DNA of 64,000 bases from NCBI GenBank assembly GCA_949751835.1, contig CATKHK010000007.1, positions 558,001-622,000 of the forward strand. Reading direction: 5' to 3'. Of the stretch, positions 22,118 to 64,000 are shown one piece after another. The notes below the pieces were generated by a model. That model was not told the origin of the DNA and did not search any database. It worked only from the letters and a program-made list of their open reading frames with translations. The translations under genes and the position numbers were made by a program. The stretch is from Blepharisma japonicum (lineage: Eukaryota > Ciliophora > Heterotrichea > Heterotrichida > Blepharismidae). Each line of letters starts with the position of its first letter. Position 1 is the first letter of the stretch.

Positions 22118-23038
22118 TTAGTTAAAAGTAGCTTTTAATGCTCATAAATATAAATGCAGATTATTGATAATGCTTTATAATAAATGTTATTTCTGCAAAT
22201 AATCCTGCGTATTTTCTTTGTTTAAAATCTTAACTCGCTCTCATTTGATTTAAAACAGCAAAATTTTAGAACTTTAATTAATATTAGGATAAGAACTTAT
22301 CTTGTAAAAGCTATTTATATTATTTTTCATCTGTAACTGTTTTTCTTCATTTTCTAATTTATGATGCCGATTTTTGGGCTAAATATTTGAAGAGAATTAA
22401 ATCTTGATACCGTTAAAATGGGATAGGTTAACGTTCGTACCTTCATATTAGTAGAGCTTTATTTTTGCTTATTGAATGAGCAAGAAAAGGAAGATGAAAA
22501 AAGTATCCAAGAGTATCTATCTATCTATTATGTATTTGCATTCCCAATGCAAAAGCTCTTATGAGCTTTCTTGAGTTTCTATGCTTCTTTCATACTTTCC
22601 TCTTCAACTTTTTTTTCTCGTTTTGACTGATCTTACTTTTGGGATTCTTGCTGGCTAGTTTGCTATATTTTTCTTTAGAGTCGACAAATATTTCCAAAAT
22701 GAGACGTCTTAAGTATTTTGCTGAGGAAAAGCAAATTGGCATGAGAGGAGCAGGCGACAAACTGAGAGAAAATCAAGAAACAAAACTTATGTCGAAGAAT
22801 CAAAAAGACAATTGGCCAAATTGCCACGATTCGATTTTTTTGGTCCTTGAAGTAATTTCGTGCTTTCACTTTTTTTGCTTGTAAAAATACTCTCTTGGAA
22901 GCAACAAATTTTTTTTGCTAGCAGAATTTAATTATCTTATATTTCTTTGATAAATACATAAGATAAAGTTTAAGATTTTATATTAAAGTCTATATAAAAG
23001 AGCCCGGTCTTATCTATAATAAATTATATAAATTTAAA
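22118..23038. other. Long region without an assigned gene
   Basis: At 921 bp this is the longest unassigned stretch. It holds an ATCT microsatellite (22515-22530) directly followed by two short hairpins: TTTGCATT/AATGCAAA (22535-22553) and AAAGCTC/GAGCTTT (22552-22569). Purine-rich and pyrimidine-rich tracts alternate between 22450 and 22880. Weak frames exist: minus 22521-22742 (73 aa, Lys/Arg-rich, one TGA), plus 22699-22884 (61 aa), plus about 22477 onward (K-rich, ends at TAG near 22655). None has homology I recognise, and they overlap each other, so none is called. A noncoding RNA is possible. Confidence 0.4.
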
Positions 23039-24382
23039 GTGAGAGAAATAATATCAATTCATATAGGGCAAGCTGGTGTTAAAACTGGAAATGCTTGTTG
23101 AGAACTTTTGTGCTTCGAACATGGGATAAAAAGCGGAAGGCAATCTTTAAGACGAGATGAAAATTGTGATGATAATATTACTACTCTTTTTGCAGAAATT
23201 CAAGAAAATGAATATGTTCCAAGATCACTCTTTATCGATTTGGAGCCTACAGCTATCAACGAAGTAAAAGGAGGAGGAAACGGCCAGCTATTTCTTCCTG
23301 AACAATTTATTTCTGGGAAAGAAGATGCTGCAAGTAACTATGCCAGAGGGTATTATAAAGCAGGCAAAACAATTATTGAAGAGAGCCTCGATAAAATACG
23401 AAAAATTGCAGAAAATTGCACAGGATTGCAAGGATTCTTACTTTTTGATTCTGTAGGAGGAGGGACTGGATCTGGATTTGGATCTTTATTGCTTGAAAGG
23501 CTTTCTGTTGAATATTCCAAAAAAATAAAAGTGAGTCTTGCAATATATCCTTATCCAAAACTATCAACTTCTGTAGTAGAGCCTTATAATTCAGTCCTTG
23601 CAACATATAAATTGCGTGAATATGTTGATTGATCTCTTGTGCTTGGCAATGATGCAATTTATGATATCTGCAATCAAAAATTAGATATAGAGCAGCCAAC
23701 CTACACCAGCATAAATAGGCTGATTGCACATGTCGTTTCTGGTATGACAACAACCATAAGATACGATGGATCCATAAATACAGATTTATATGAATTTTAC
23801 AAAAATCTAGTTCCATACCCAAGAGTACATTTTATGCTATCATCATATGCCCCTTTTATTTCACCTATGCGAGGATACCATGAAGATCCATCTGTTTTCG
23901 ATATAACGGACTCAGTTTTTGACAGGACACATATGATAGCAAAATGTGATCCAACGAAAGGAAAATATATAGCGTGTAATTTAATGTATTTTGGAGACAT
24001 AATTCCAAAAGATGCAAATGCAGCAATAATTAAAACGAGAGAAAAAAAAATGATAAAGTTTATTGACTGATGCGCTACAGGGGTACGATGTGGAATTAAT
24101 TATAATTTGCCAATGGTACCTCCTGGGGGTGATATGGCAAAAGTGATAAGATCTGTATTCAATATAAGCAATCACTCATCAATTACCCAAGTATTTTCAA
24201 GAATTAATAAAGATTTTGATTTAATGTATGAGAAGCAAGCTTTCCTTCACTGGTATTATAAAGAAGGAATGGAAGAGGATGAATTATATGAGGCAAGATA
24301 TGATATGGAAGCTCTTAATGGTGATTATAAAGACCTTGAAGGAAATTCGCATGAAGAAGAGGAAAATATTGATGGAGCATAA
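23039..24382 (+). CDS. Divergent alpha-tubulin A, GTG in place of ATG, 447 codons
   Basis: Full-length alpha-tubulin frame with three TGA-encoded Trp codons, including the conserved Trp21 position and [14 protein letters not shown]-binding signature GGGTGSG is intact and [10 protein letters not shown] carries the alpha-specific S9-S10 insertion. The canonical opening [13 protein letters not shown] is present except that the first codon is GTG (23039-23041). There is no in-frame ATG upstream back to a TAA at about 22964, nor any ATG at all in the preceding ~100 bp, and no 15/16-nt intron can supply one. Lys40 is Glu (ENEYVPRS) and the tail lacks a C-terminal Tyr (ends ENIDGA). First of three tandem, same-strand copies. 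Either non-AUG initiated or a silent gene. Confidence 0.8.
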
Positions 24383-24845
24383 ATAATTTTTAAATCATAT
24401 TTTTTGAAATTTTAATTTGTTTTTTGGGTGAGTTTTGGCTTTTATAACAGTAATAAGGTTCTTAATTTATAAATTAAAATCTCGAAAATATTAAATCTTG
24501 AAAAGCATTATTAGTTATTGGAGAAATATAGGTGTGACGCTTGGAAAAGGGCTATCTTAATATAAAGATTAAGACGAATTACTAAACCAACGTTATTTTT
24601 ATGAAAATGAAATGACATAAAAATAAAACGCATTAGCAAAAAGGATGAGTAGAATTTTGAAGCGTTTATAAGGATAGTTTGAGAAAAGCATTAAAAGAGG
24701 ATTTAAATCATTTTCAAATAAAAGATCTGTTTTCAAATAATTTAAGTCTATGGAAATAAGAAGAAAAATTACAAAAATCGATAATTGTTCTAATAATTAA
24801 AAACAATTCACTTACAATATTATAAAACGGGATGATAAAATTAAT
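24383..24845. other. Intergenic between tubulin copies A and B
   Basis: AT-rich 463 bp. I see no gene. An out-of-frame ATG lies 17 bp upstream of the CTG of copy B. Confidence 0.5.
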
Positions 24846-26180
24846 CTGAGAGAAATAATATCAATTCATATAGGACAAGCTGAAATTCAAGTTGGGAATT
24901 CTTGCTGAGAATTATTTTGTTTAGAGCATGGATTAAAAGGCAATAGAAAATTTGTCAATGAGGATACGCCTTATGATGATTACTTAACTACTTTTGTTGC
25001 AGAAATTCAAGAAAATGAATATGTTCCAAGATCACTCTTTATCGATTTGGAGCCCACAGCTATCAATGAAGTAAAAAGAGGAAAAAACAGTGAGTTATTT
25101 CTTTCTGAGCAATTCATTTTTAGTAAAGAAGATGCTGCAAGTAACTATGCAAGAGGCTATTATTCAACTGAAAATAGAGTAATCGACGAAAGTCTTGATA
25201 AAATACGAAAAATAGCTGATAATTGTACAGGATTGCAAGGATTTTTAGTTTTTAGTTCTGTAGCTGGTGGGACTGGATCTGGATTTGGGTCTTTATTACT
25301 TGAAAAACTTTCTGCTGAATATTCGAAAAAAACAAAAGTAAGTCTTGCAATATATCCTTCTTCAAAACTTTCAACTTCTGTAATTGAACCCTATAATTCA
25401 GTCCTTAAAACGCATAAACTGCGTGAACACTCAGATATAACTTTTGTGCTTGATAATGAAGCAATTAATGATATATGCAAGCAGTGACTATATTTTCATC
25501 AGCCATCCTACACCAACATAAATAATATAATTGCTCAAGTGGTTTCTGCCATGACTGCATCCATTCGATATGAAGGCTACTTAAATACAGACTTGCATGA
25601 ATTACAAACAAATCTCGCTTCTTATCCAAGATTAAATTTTCTGCTTTCGTCTTATGCTCCATTTCATTCTTCTGAGCGACCGATCTATCAAATTCCTACG
25701 GCTTCAGATATAACTGAATCAGTGCTTGAGGCTCCAAGTATGATGGCTAAATGCAACCCAAAAGAAGGAAGGGCTATTTCCTACAATTTAATGTATAGAG
25801 GAGATGTTGTGCCAAAAGACGTATCTGCATCAGTAGCTGCTGCAAAAGCTAAAGGTTCATTTCGCTTTAGTAATCGATTTCCAAGTATTTTAAAATGTGG
25901 AATTAACTATACACAACCTATGATACTTCCTGATAGTTTTATGGCAAATTTGTTAAGATCTGTATTGAGTATTAGTAATCATTCAGCAATTACTCAAGTA
26001 TTTTCGAGAATTAATAAAGATTTTGATGAAATGTATGCAAAAAAAGCTTTTCTTCATTGGTACTACAGAGAAGGAATGGAAGAGGAAGAATTTCGTGAGG
26101 CAAGAAATGATATAACAGATCTTGAAAAAGATTATGAAGAATTAGTAAATGCAAATGAAGTAGAGAGTTTTAGAGAATAA
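24846..26180 (+). CDS. Divergent alpha-tubulin B, CTG in place of ATG, 444 codons
   Basis: Continuous alpha-tubulin frame beginning CTG AGA GAA ([21 protein letters not shown]) at 24846, with TGA Trp at the Trp21 position and at 25485. No in-frame ATG is available before an upstream TAA. The nucleotide-binding loop is altered: AGGTGSG instead of GGGTGSG. The usual FVDWCPTGF region reads FSNRFPSIL, losing a near-invariant Trp, and GGDLAK reads DSFMAN. Lys40 is Glu; the C-terminus is ESFRE without Tyr. It is the most altered copy. Despite this it has no frameshift or TAA/TAG over 1.3 kb, which argues against a long-dead pseudogene. Confidence 0.75.
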
Positions 26181-26262
26181 TTTAAAATGTATAATTTTTT
26201 GTAGTTACAAAAAAAAATGTAATGATTTATTTTTTATAATTACGAAATGAAAATAAATTAAT

Positions 26263-27603
26263 CTGAGAGAAATATTATTGATTCATATTGGGCAAGCTGG
26301 AATTCAAGTTGGAAATACTTGCTGAGAATTATTTTGTTTAGAGCATGGATTAACAAATGACAGACATTTTGCTAACAAAGATAATCCATATGATGACAAC
26401 TTTACAAGCTTTTTTGCAGAAATTAAAGAAAACGAATTTGTGCCAAGATCACTCTTTATCGATTTGGAACCCACAGCTATCAATGAAGTAAAAAGAGGAA
26501 TAAATAAGCAGCTATTTCTTCCTGAACAATTCATTTCTGGCAAAGAAGATGCTGCAAATATTTATTCTAGAGGATACTCTTCAATTGGAAAAGAAATCGT
26601 AGTCGAAAGTCTTGACAGAATAAGAAAAATAGTTGAAAATTGTATAAACTTTCAAGGGTTTATAGTTTTCCATTCAGTAGGAGGTGGAACAGGATCTGGC
26701 TTCAGTTCTTTATTGCTGGAGCGTCTTTCAGTCGACTACGGAGGAAAACCAAAGATAAGTTTTTCTATCTACCCTTCTTCAACTACATCAGTTTCTGTAG
26801 TTGAGCCCTACAATTCAGTCCTTGCAACTCATAAATTACTTGAACACTCTGATGTATCTCTTGTCCTTGATAATAAAGCACTTTACGATATATGCAACTG
26901 GCAACTAGCTATTGACCGACCAACCTACACAAATCTTAATAATTTAGCAGCCCAAGTAATTTCCTCTATAACTTTATCTATGCGAAGTGGCGGAGCATTA
27001 AATGAAAATCTATACGAACTTAAAAATAACATGATTCCATATCCAAGAATTCATTTTCTGATTTCATCATATGCTCCACTATTTCCATCGACTAGCACAC
27101 CTTATGATCCAACGTGCTCAGATATAACGAGTCGTTGCTTTGAACCTATATATATGATGGCAAAATGTGATCCTAAAAACGGCAAATATATGGCAGTCAG
27201 TTTGATGTATCGCGGTGATGTTGTGCCTAAAGATGTATCTGCGTCAATTGCTTGATGCAAAACAAAAAGAACTATAAATTTTGTTGATTGATGCCCAACG
27301 GGATTAAAATGTGGGATAAACTATAAGGCACCTGATGTAATTATAGGTGGCGACATTGCTAAAATGCGGAGGTCAGGACTTATGATCTGCAATCATACAG
27401 CAATTTCAGAATTTTTTTCTAGAATTGATGGTGAATTCGATTTAATGTATAAGAAAAGGGCTTTTGTTCATTGGTATATAGCTGAAGGAATGGAAGAAGG
27501 TGAATTCACAGAAGCTAGAGAAGATTCAGAAGCACTCGAAGCTGATTATAAAGAGTGCGCATCAGATACTCTTGAAGAAAATACACCTGAGGAAGAAAGT
27601 TAA
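26263..27603 (+). CDS. Divergent alpha-tubulin C, CTG in place of ATG, 446 codons
   Basis: Continuous alpha-tubulin frame beginning CTG AGA GAA at 26263 ([21 protein letters not shown]). Intact GGGTGSG and [11 protein letters not shown], and a good C-terminal helix ([30 protein letters not shown]). TGA encodes Trp at three sites. The 16 bases before the CTG nearly match those of copy B (AATTAATCTGAGAG), so the flank was duplicated with the gene. The nearest upstream ATG is out of frame. Lys40 is Glu, and the tail ends EEES. The closest of the three tandem copies to canonical sequence in the C-terminal half. Confidence 0.78.
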
Positions 27604-27725: not shown

Positions 27726-29075
27726 TTAATAGTGCTCATAATCTATATCTTCCTCAGGTTGCACAGTTTCAGCTGAAATCTCTTCATAGTCTCTTTCCAA
27801 AGCAGCCAGGTTTTCTCTCATTTCACTAAATTCTCCTTCAGACATTCCTTCTCCAACAAATCAATGGACAAAAGCCCTCTTTGCATACATTAAGTCAAAT
27901 TTATGCGAAATTTTTTCAAAAACTTCTTTAATAGCTGAAGAATTGCTAATCATAGTAGCTGACCTAGGAGTTTTAGCTAAATCACCTCCTGGTACCACAG
28001 TTGAAATCTGGTTGTTTATTCCACATTTAAATCCAGTTGGGCACCAATCTACAAAACTCACAGTCTTTTTAGCTTTTATTGTATCAATTGCCGAATAAAC
28101 TTCTTTAGGCACAACATCACCTCTATATGTTAAGCAGCAAGCAATATATTTACCATTTGTAGGGTTGCATTTTACCATCATTGATGAAGGCTCAAAAGCT
28201 GCTTCAGTGATATCATAAACAGATAATGCTTCATGATATGCTTTTTCTGCAGAAATAAAAGGTGCATAAGATGAAAGCATAAAATGTACCCTAGGAAATG
28301 GTACTAAATTCGTTTCAAATTGATTTATATCTAAACTTAAACTGCCTTCAAATCTTAATGGAGCAGTAAGCGAAGAAATTACTTGAGCTATTAGCCTGTT
28401 TAAATTTGTGTAGCTGGGAGATTCAACACTAAGGTGGCTTTGGCAGATATCATAAATCGCTTCATTATCAAATGCAATTGCGACATTTAAATGCTCAATT
28501 GCAATGTGTGTAAAATATGTAGCATTATATGGCTCCACCACAATACAGGAAATATGGGGAGCAGGATACACTAAAAATCCTATCTTTGGGAGTTTATAAT
28601 AAACAGATAATCTTTCCAATAGTAATGATCCGAATCCTGAGCCTGTTCCTCCTCCTATTGAATTAAATACAAAAAATCCTTGAAGCTTCTCACAGGATTC
28701 AGCTAATTTTTGAATTTTTTCACAGCAAATATCAATAATTTCTTTTCCCAATGTATAATGACCTTTTGTGTAAAGATTTGCAGAGTCTTCTTTTGAGTTA
28801 ATTAATGAGTCAGAATTGAATAGATTTTTATATGTGCCAGTTCTTATTTCGTCAATTACAGTTGGCTCTAAGTCTATAAATAGGCTGCGAGGGACATAGT
28901 TTCCTGATTTGGTTTCAGAAAAAAGGGTGTTAAAACTGTTGTCAGAGATATTATTTGAGGAATCATCCATCTTACCATCAGGAGTAATTCTGTGCTCAAG
29001 ACAAAAGAGTTCTCAACAGGAGTTTCCAATTTGTAGTCCTGCCTGGCCAATGTGAATAGATATAACTTCTTTCAT
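27726..29075 (-). CDS. Divergent alpha-tubulin D, normal ATG, 449 aa
   Basis: The only cluster member with an ATG (29075: [13 protein letters not shown]). It is convergent with copy C and divergent from the coiled-coil gene at 29224. Two TGA codons are Trp (Trp21 position and VHW near the C-terminus). [27 protein letters not shown] and [15 protein letters not shown] are canonical alpha. Notable changes: the residue aligned with catalytic Glu254 of alpha-tubulin is Gln (codon at 28320-28322, in DINQFETNL instead of DxTEFQTNL); Lys40 is Asn (TKSGNYVPR). The tail ends DIDYEHY, so it does keep a terminal Tyr. Probably an expressed specialised isotype. Confidence 0.9.
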
Positions 29076-61899: not shown

Positions 61900-62982
61900 A
61901 TGGATCTATCTGCAATTTCAAATTCAGATAAATGAAAATTATTCTTTAAAATGAAATCTCAGGAATTAATCGATACTCCTGTTTTTATATATTCCGATAC
62001 AACATTCGAGACTCTAAGAGAAATAAATGAGGATGCTAGCCCAAATATTAATTATGAAAATCTAGATGACTACACTACTCTATCTAAAGATGAAATTCAA
62101 GATATACCAGGTGGATGACTATACTCAAAATACACAGAGCAGCACATCGAAAAAATGCGGCTGTTCCATATACTTGGCGTAGCTTTTGAGGCGATTGGAC
62201 TACTTCTGGGGGAAGCTTTGGTAGCAAGCGAAGCGAGTCACGGTATCAATTCTTTTACTCCACAGCATTACTTTATACTTTCTGGGTGAATTTCTATTTT
62301 ATCATTAGGAGTATTTTTTCTCTATATGCTCTACAGCAAAACATTGGCTTCCAGAGAAATCATGGTAAATCAATTAGGCTATCTAGCATATGTGGTTTAC
62401 GCATTAGATGGTATTTATTTATCACTAAGAAACTTCACAGAATTGCTATATGTAAACATCATCTGCACAGTTCTTCTAACTGCATTGATGATTATTGTAT
62501 TTAGATTACATAGAAGGGTAAAGTATGAAGACGACGGGCGATTTGTGGTTTCTCGATCTGTATTTTTAGGTATCCATGCAAAAATCAGCTTATTACTTGG
62601 ATGGCTTTTAATATTATTTCTCCACAGAATTTTCATCTGTTTATCTTTCTCCGAAACATCATACAATCTCCTAGGCTGGCCCAACGAAAATTGGTCAATC
62701 TTAGCTTTATGTTTGGCCTTCGCAATCGGTGTAATTTTTATGAGTACTTATAAAGATGTGTTTTACGCCATATCTTTAGTTTATTCCTTTATTGGTATTT
62801 ATGTCATGCAGACCCACGACCACATGTGCAAATCAGTGATGCAAGAAAACTGTAGCAAAGATGTAGGAACTTGTGCTATAGCATTGGCATCAATTTTTCT
62901 TATATTCATCCTCATCACCTTGATCTTTTATTACGACACCGTCTGCTATAAAAAGCGCCGAATTCTCCCCAGCAACCTATAG
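61900..62982 (+). CDS. Multi-pass membrane protein, 360 aa
   Basis: Three TGA codons are Trp. In-frame ATGs lie at 61900 (MDLSAISNSDKW) and 61951 (MKSQELIDTP); the first is used here, the second would give 343 aa. The ~85-residue N-terminus is acidic and cytosolic. About eight hydrophobic helices follow (FHILGVAFEAIGLLLGEAL; HYFILSGWISILSLGVFFLYML; LAYVVYALDGIYL; LLYVNIICTVLLTALMIIVF; ISLLLGWLLILFLHRIFICL; LALCLAFAIGVIFM; VFYAISLVYSFIGIYVM; CAIALASIFLIFILITLIFYY). No transporter or receptor signature recognised. Stop lies 72 bp before the adenylate kinase ATG on the same strand. Confidence 0.75.
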
Positions 62983-63054
62983 CATGCTATTTCTAACTAT
63001 TAACCCAAATCTAACTAATTCATAAACTGATAATCAATCAGTTACTTTAAAATC

Positions 63055-64000
63055 ATGGAGCAATCGAATATTTTTGAAGGCAAAGGGCCGCGCATCATAT
63101 TCGTTACTGGAGGTCCAGGAACCGGCAAAGGAACCCAATGTGCCGTTCTTGTGGAAGAATATGGCTTTATGCACATCTCAATAGGAGATCTCATGAGACA
63201 TGAAATCCGAAGTGGAAGCGAAGAAGGGCAAAACATCAAAGCAATAGTGCAGAGTGGAAATTTAGTCCCAAAAGAACTCACTGTAACTCTACTAATGAAA
63301 GCTTTAAAATCTACAAGTGCCCATACAGTCCTGATTGATGGGTTTCCACGATCTGTGGATCAGGCAGTCTATTTGGAACAAATGGGATTAAAAATCAATT
63401 ATTTGTTGCATTTTGATACAAATAAAGAAGATGTGCTGCTAAATAGACTGATTGAGAGAGGAAAAACAAGTGGAAGAGCTGATGATAATGAAGAGACTAT
63501 CGTTAAAAGGTTTAGAGTCTATAAAGCAGAGTCATTGCCTGTCCTTCAGCTATATGAACCTTTTGGAATTGTTCGAAAAGTTGATTGTTTAGCGACAATC
63601 CCTGAAGTGTTTCATAGAGCTGTATGCACCTTAAGGCCTGAACTTTTATTTGTAGCTGGGTCTAAGTTTTCAGGAAAAACCACCTTAAGCAAAATTTTAG
63701 CTGAAAGGTATTATTACTATATGTCACTGGACAGTATTTTAATAATCAAAAGAGAAGGGCAAAAAGTGAAAATAACTGATGACGAAGAAATTGCTAGAAG
63801 ACTTGTAAAACAATTACAGAAATTAAAACATCATACAAGAGTACTTGTGGATGGGTTTCCTATGAATTTAGTACAGGCTCAGCTGTTTGAAGGATTATTA
63901 GGAGCTCCTAATAAAGTTATTTATTTACATTGTCCAAGAGATGTCTGTCAAAACAGACAGTTAAGTTTAGGGAAAAAATCGGAAAATTATATTCCTTCAA
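63055..64000 (+). CDS. Tandem adenylate-kinase-domain protein, partial at window end
   Basis: ATG 63055; open to the end of the window (315 codons), so the 3' end is missing. Domain 1 (about 10-205) is an AK1/UMP-CMP-kinase-type adenylate kinase: P-loop GGPGTGKGTQ, ISIGDLMRHEI for NMP binding, LIDGFPRSVDQA, and a short LID (IERGKTSGRADDNEETIVKRF) with its arginines. Domain 2 (from about 208) is a degenerate copy: VAGSKFSGKTTLSKILAERY, LVDGFPMNLVQAQ, LHCPRDVCQNR. Tandem AK domains with degenerate copies occur in ciliary AKs (AK5/AK8/AK9-like, Chlamydomonas Oda5-associated AK), which regenerate ATP in axonemes. A minus-strand frame here is a shadow. Confidence 0.87.
   Translation, partial: MEQSNIFEGKGPRIIFVTGGPGTGKGTQCAVLVEEYGFMHISIGDLMRHEIRSGSEEGQNIKAIVQSGNLVPKELTVTLLMKALKSTSAHTVLIDGFPRSVDQAVYLEQMGLKINYLLHFDTNKEDVLLNRLIERGKTSGRADDNEETIVKRFRVYKAESLPVLQLYEPFGIVRKVDCLATIPEVFHRAVCTLRPELLFVAGSKFSGKTTLSKILAERYYYYMSLDSILIIKREGQKVKITDDEEIARRLVKQLQKLKHHTRVLVDGFPMNLVQAQLFEGLLGAPNKVIYLHCPRDVCQNRQLSLGKKSENYIPS

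Follow-up and report, generated by a model that had tools for sequence, protein, structure and literature searches.

Three tandem α-tubulin genes of Blepharisma japonicum have GTG or CTG at the position of the start ATG and remain under selective constraint

Three neighboring α-tubulin-like genes of the ciliate Blepharisma japonicum, referred to here as copies A, B, and C, carry GTG, CTG, and CTG, respectively, at the position where other α-tubulins have their start ATG, and their full-length frames are intact and under selection. The genes lie in a window of 64,000 nucleotides (C7:558001–622000) of a genome of 45.2 Mb in 224 contigs. With moderate confidence, we interpret them, from their sequences, as functional, divergent α-tubulin genes that would use near-cognate initiation, probably yielding low amounts of protein. 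Ribosomes would start at the near-cognate codon in the Met1 position, CUG in B and C and GUG in A, and perhaps also at the AUU two codons upstream in B and C; initiator Met would be inserted at the near-cognate codon, and the product would be a full-length tubulin present at a low level. The genes and their first codons are listed below, with ω denoting the ratio of nonsynonymous to synonymous substitution rates (dN/dS). Codons are numbered with the GTG or CTG as the first, and TGA is read as Trp.

23039..24382, plus strand: copy A, α-tubulin-like frame with GTG first; 447 codons plus TAA; Pfam domains Tubulin and Tubulin_C; ω = 0.18
23039..23041, plus strand: first codon of A, GTG where ATG is expected; A at position −3
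24846..26180, plus strand: copy B, α-tubulin-like frame with CTG first; 444 codons plus TAA; ω = 0.34
24846..24848, plus strand: first codon of B, CTG where ATG is expected; A at position −3; in-frame ATT (24840) two codons 5′
26263..27603, plus strand: copy C, α-tubulin-like frame with CTG first; 446 codons plus TAA; ω = 0.13
26263..26265, plus strand: first codon of C, CTG where ATG is expected; A at position −3; in-frame ATT at 26257
27726..29075, minus strand: copy D, adjoining α-tubulin-like gene with a normal ATG; 449 codons plus stop; Gln at the E254 position

The GTG, CTG, and CTG codons align with Met1 of other α-tubulins and are directly followed by AGA GAA (Arg-Glu) in each copy; all three have the form NTG, and an A occupies both −3 and +4. 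The frames run open to their TAA without an internal TAA or TAG and without a frameshift, and TGA encodes Trp in all three, including at the conserved Trp21. An initial annotation of this region had reported the three replaced start codons, the intact frames, and a normal ATG in D, and each of these observations was reproduced here.

The assignment to α-tubulin is based on several comparisons. PF00091 and PF03953 score above the curated cut-off in A, B, and C, and α chains account for all of the best 60 of 69 matches of copy A in the PDB. Within the genome, among the places listed, copy A is 45 to 63% identical to the α group and at most 37% identical to a group with a β-like N-terminus, which we take to be β-tubulins. 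The three copies form a separate clade with 100% support, and their identity to the other α-tubulins of the genome does not exceed 62%. The nucleotide loop reads GGGTGSG in A and C and AGGTGSG in B. At the E254 position, A, B, and C have Glu and D has Gln, the sole exception among 14 aligned α-tubulins; we presume that D may bind guanosine triphosphate without triggering its hydrolysis. K40 is absent from A, B, and C, which have Asp at the aligned position within a shortened loop. Since K40 is not universal among α-tubulins, its absence is compatible with membership.

Selection was assessed with codon models that were fitted by maximum likelihood to 9 of the 14 α-tubulins, over 435 columns of an alignment of 460, with codon 1 and the columns containing gaps removed; piecewise fits used 5 of the 14. 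Branch-specific ω was 0.18 for A, 0.34 for B, 0.13 for C, 0.34 for the stem joining A and B, 0.08 for the stem of the clade, and 0.065 elsewhere; for the clade, ω was 0.20 compared with a background of 0.065. Neutrality (ω = 1) was rejected for each copy, with twice the difference in log-likelihood (2ΔlnL) being 30.5 for A, 6.7 for B, and 18.3 for C, and 216 for the four clade branches jointly. Selection on A, B, and C is weaker than on the other α-tubulins, and weakest in B, yet clearly present. A dN/dS comparison between the copies had been proposed as a check on whether they are pseudogenes, and values of 0.13 to 0.34 are not what pseudogenes would give.

This constraint extends to the part of the protein that any internal start would miss. 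Alignment columns 2 to 240 alone gave an ω of 0.20 in the clade, and reading downstream in frame, no ATG appears before codon 236 in A, codon 236 in B, and codon 240 in C. Hence, translation has to begin at codon 1 or close to it, and initiation at the downstream ATG was ruled out by the constraint on the preceding part.

If the ATG codons had been lost only shortly ago, the copies could be silenced genes whose frames have yet to decay, which the initial annotation had named as the alternative. We regard this explanation as unlikely, although its force differs between copies. It would fit the elevated ω of the clade (0.20 versus 0.065), the changes in B at otherwise invariant sites (see below), and the presence of decayed tubulin pieces elsewhere, on contig C66. 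Neutral simulations of stop codons gave on average 15 to 27 stops per copy over the full branches, whereas none is observed; zero stops retained a chance of at least 5% only for a neutral time of up to about 0.12 to 0.15 changes per codon. A recent loss within that limit could leave intact frames. However, B and C, which share the CTG and its flank, have diverged well past it with no stop in either: in codons 2 to 30, the two branches sum to at least about 0.65 neutral changes per codon, a value interpolated on the profile for these 29 codons. Simulations at 0.65 left B and C together with 13.4 stops on average and produced not one case of zero stops in 20,000 runs, and at 0.3 the probability of zero stops was 0.0015.

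This divergence without stops provides our strongest evidence that the ATG-less frames work, and it depends on those 29 codons and on a single origin of the shared CTG. Given such an origin, silencing of B and C is strongly disfavored; it works only if both lost their ATG separately and very recently, and two independent, very recent changes to CTG are less likely. Silencing of A is less firmly excluded. Without a single origin of the CTG, silencing would need three separate recent losses, each to NTG. The decayed tubulins on C66 do contain stops and, by eye, frameshifts. Near-cognate initiation, which had also been suggested initially, provides the best fit to the constraint as seen in ω below 1, the absence of stops, and the N-terminal half.

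An in-frame ATG was sought upstream of each gene. Toward the 5′ end, the frame of A closes with a stop at 22964, that of B at 24798, and that of C at 26254, and no in-frame ATG occurs between these stops and the first codons. Nor does any GT-AG intron of 14 to 17 nucleotides (nt) within 500 nt upstream supply an ATG to A, B, or C, which bears out, over a slightly wider length range, the earlier claim that 15- or 16-nt introns cannot rescue these genes. Applied to control genes, this kind of search did reveal introns of 15 nt, in two of them. The relevant upstream features are as follows.

26254..26256, plus strand: in-frame TAA of C, three codons 5′ of the CTG
24832..24858, plus strand: out-of-frame upstream ATG of B opening a short frame (MIKLIWEK, then a stop) that overlaps the CTG; found by eye
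26247..26261, plus strand: out-of-frame upstream ATG of C opening a short frame (MKIN, then a stop) that ends one base 5′ of the CTG; found by eye
22988..23039, plus strand: possible 52-nt GT-AG intron of A, joining A to TG and giving MREIISIH; a candidate under the alternative of a hidden exon

In copy C, the codons between the TAA and Arg are ATT, AAT, and CTG, and nothing else. The TAA at 26254 thus limits an unspliced start to ATT (26257) or CTG (26263). A regulatory role of the short out-of-frame frames before the CTG of B and C is possible. Frameshifting from these upstream ATGs, at −14 in B and −16 in C, was considered and set aside because, by eye, the two would require different frame changes.

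An ATG could also reside in a hidden upstream exon joined through an intron longer than 15 to 16 nt or one with unusual ends. The best case is in A, where removal of the 52-nt stretch at 22988 to 23039 would yield A/TG AGA GAA and hence exactly MREIISIH, such that a longer intron could rescue this copy. For C, a 108-nt GT-AG option (26160–26267) would yield MQMKEILLIH, but its ATG and donor sit within the end of B, and the shortest GT-AG option, of 67 nt, swaps out the Arg (MYNFLEILLIH). The two GT-AG options of copy B, of 189 and 204 nt, both lose the Arg-Glu. With AT-AG ends, removal of 17 nt in A would give MREIISIH, removal of 11 nt in B MIKEIISIH, and removal of 13 nt in C MKIKILLIH; these options vary in length, and their ends are unlike those of a GT-AG intron. 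Considering up to four examples per type, a search with GC-AG, AT-AC, GT-TG, GT-GG, AT-AG, and GA-AG ends yielded options, with no length or boundary common to the copies. In excerpts of the account of Blepharisma stoltei (PMC9942806), UGA encodes Trp and introns are mostly 15 and 16 bp long; both features agree with the TGA = Trp code and the 15-nt GTAA...AG introns of the two control genes, whereas the stretch in A starts with GTCT. Chance options are expected in AT-rich DNA, and A alone has 20 of the GT-AG type in the upstream search. We take the longer and odd options in all three copies to be such chance occurrences and judge a hidden exon to be improbable.

We then asked how exceptional the loss of ATG is. 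A search of the genome for its own tubulins returned at least 35 places, of which three are A, B, and C, two are the decayed fragments on C66, which lack the N-terminus, and 30 are others. In each of these 30, which keep the N-terminus, an in-frame ATG stands where it is expected or no more than a few codons away. An in-frame ATG is likewise present in 40 nontubulin controls (20 Ras, 12 HSP70, and 8 actin genes): it precedes the domain in 38 and appears in the other two once the 15-nt GT-AG intron is removed. These controls were drawn from near the top of lists totaling 214 places (31 + 150 + 33), skipping incomplete matches, matches interrupted by TAA or TAG, most of which bear introns, and a handful of other places. 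A genome-wide habit of non-ATG starts was thus seen in none of the 40 controls or 30 tubulins, and among the genes examined the loss of ATG is specific to the clade of A, B, and C. At one of the C66 places (L051, about 62100–63650), decayed 3′ pieces of α-tubulin are interleaved with copies of another sequence unit and adjoin two intact genes, giving a picture of a dying tubulin array in the same genome. Pieces of HSP70 with several stops (C94:52792–54371), near longer HSP70 matches of that contig, may represent another decaying tandem copy.

The history of the three copies differs along their length. Whole-gene trees built from protein, all positions, positions 1 and 2, or codons joined A with B in all four cases (99–100% support), with C beside them, and from column 106 onward this grouping was favored by 39 log-likelihood units (lnL). 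Codons 2 to 30, in contrast, favored B with C by 4.3 lnL, and codons 2 to 50 and 51 to 105 were scarcely decisive. Identical runs were longer than expected between A and B (58 nt; 0 of 1000 permutations), B and C (36 nt; P = 0.004), and A and C (26 nt; P = 0.027); among control pairs, C66a–C66b gave P = 0.038, and D–A and C–C17 were not significant. Together, the long identical runs and the region-dependent trees suggest that gene conversion probably transferred segments among A, B, and C. Around codons 55 to 80 (23196–23267, 24999–25075, and 26420–26500), the three copies are nearly identical, and the stretches on either side differ, which makes conversion inside the array probable there too.

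Because of gene conversion, the order of events proposed initially, in which the CTG of B and C and its flank predate their duplication and A changed independently, is too simple: codons 2 to 30 agree with it, and the whole-gene trees do not. One possibility is that the common ancestor already had CTG, with a later change to GTG in A; the other is that CTG originated in B or in C and the second of these two received it by copying. The divergence of B and C after acquisition of the shared CTG holds under both scenarios.

The evidence for conversion, from the identical runs between all three pairs and the tree preference in codons 2 to 30, would also fit the idea that the copies are silent cassettes, never translated and preserved by conversion among themselves or with a functional gene. 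No close relative with an ATG that could act as the working partner was found in the genome, the clade having 100% support and at most 62% identity to any α-tubulin outside it, and conversion among dead copies would be expected to spread stops rather than remove them. This explanation therefore seems very improbable. We give the least credence to an AUG supplied by alternative macronuclear DNA processing, RNA editing, or an assembly error. Ciliates do process somatic DNA, but the correction would be needed at three separate sites, with CTG to ATG and GTG to ATG being different changes, and we know of no such editing in ciliates.

Near-cognate initiation thus remains our preferred reading, and several observations count against it. 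On the short internal branch leading to A and B (ω = 0.34), neutrality was not rejected (2ΔlnL = 0.6). Retention of T and G at the second and third positions of the start codon had a P value of 0.013 with whole-gene branch lengths and 0.08 with lengths from the 5′ end, so conservation of these bases is only suggestive. Copy B is altered at sites otherwise invariant among the 14 α-tubulins (G142A, W346R, and C347F), and a structure prediction for B from a four-row alignment was uninformative, with a mean predicted local distance difference test (pLDDT) score of 35. The out-of-frame ATGs of B and C would, if present in the messenger RNA, impede scanning, and the 82 nt between the stop of B and the start of C leave little room for a promoter. 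Position +4 is A, whereas G is favored according to excerpts of PMC9082881. RNA folding from +1 to +60 revealed no stem beyond those of ATG-starting tubulins: the folds have energies of −7.9 kcal/mol in A, −2.8 in B, and −4.2 in C, inside the range of −2.4 to −17.1 for the latter, and the idea of a stem after the start codon was discarded.

We infer that the three genes are transcribed, are translated from their NTG codons at a low level, and have a role in the cell. As to the level, GC content at third codon positions (GC3) is 0.19 to 0.23 in A, B, and C compared with 0.37 to 0.43 in the α-tubulin genes C17, C55, and C57. A box with the sequence CATGGGG, which follows AAAT or AAAC, lies 66 to 73 nt before five α-tubulin genes (C17, C55, C57, C66a, and C66b; L022–L025 and L028) and at −28 in a divergent tubulin (L044), and none occurs within 200 bases before A, B, C, or D; we consider it a candidate promoter element. 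Low GC3, TGA for Trp, and the missing box only suggest low output of A, B, and C. These marks do not follow the start codon, since D has an ATG yet shows low GC3, TGA for Trp, and no box, and C66a and C66b combine the box with a GC3 of only 0.24 and 0.27. The low level that the initial annotation attached to near-cognate initiation is, accordingly, the less firm part of its proposal.

The canonical-looking genes C17, C55, and C57 belong to the same family and share the N-terminus REI/V..IHxGQA; A, B, and C are 55 to 62% identical to them. Unlike A, B, and C, they have an ATG, have kept K40, and carry the CATGGGG box about 70 nt upstream, along with their higher GC3. Outside this genome, the nearest parallel is mammalian EIF4G2 (DAP5), which excerpts of PMC9082881 describe as thought to initiate exclusively at GUG, with a minor AUU start shortly upstream. 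Like A, B, and C, it is a full-length nuclear gene with a near-cognate codon at the start position, and its minor upstream AUU resembles the in-frame ATT two codons before the CTG of B and C. Unlike this single gene, which has ribosome-profiling support, the ciliate genes are three paralogues with CTG as well as GTG. The yeast genes ALA1 (ACG) and GRS1 (TTG) also have near-cognate codons at the start of nuclear genes in a unicellular eukaryote, in this case as alternative initiators, according to excerpts of PMC2909995, whereas A, B, and C are without any ATG for the full-length product.

To our knowledge, complete dependence of a gene on a non-AUG start is rare, and most of the known instances are single cases. 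In titles and opening lines of abstracts from the open-licence literature, no non-AUG tubulin and no ciliate nuclear gene with only non-AUG starts was reported among the matches listed. Exclusive non-AUG initiation is already known for single genes, and what would be new here is a tandem family of ciliate tubulins. More tentatively, we propose that AUG was lost once in this small α-tubulin family, which was then duplicated, with CTG changing to GTG in A, and that the genes were kept by selection while using near-cognate starts only; start-codon strength would then have set isotype dose heritably over the life of the lineage. If true, a family of paralogues under selection would show that gene dose can be set stably and heritably by a weak start codon, and this for tubulin, whose balance cells control closely. 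Gene prediction based on ATG would drop such genes or truncate them to the first in-frame ATG at codon 236 to 240, and more of them may therefore be hidden in ciliate genomes.

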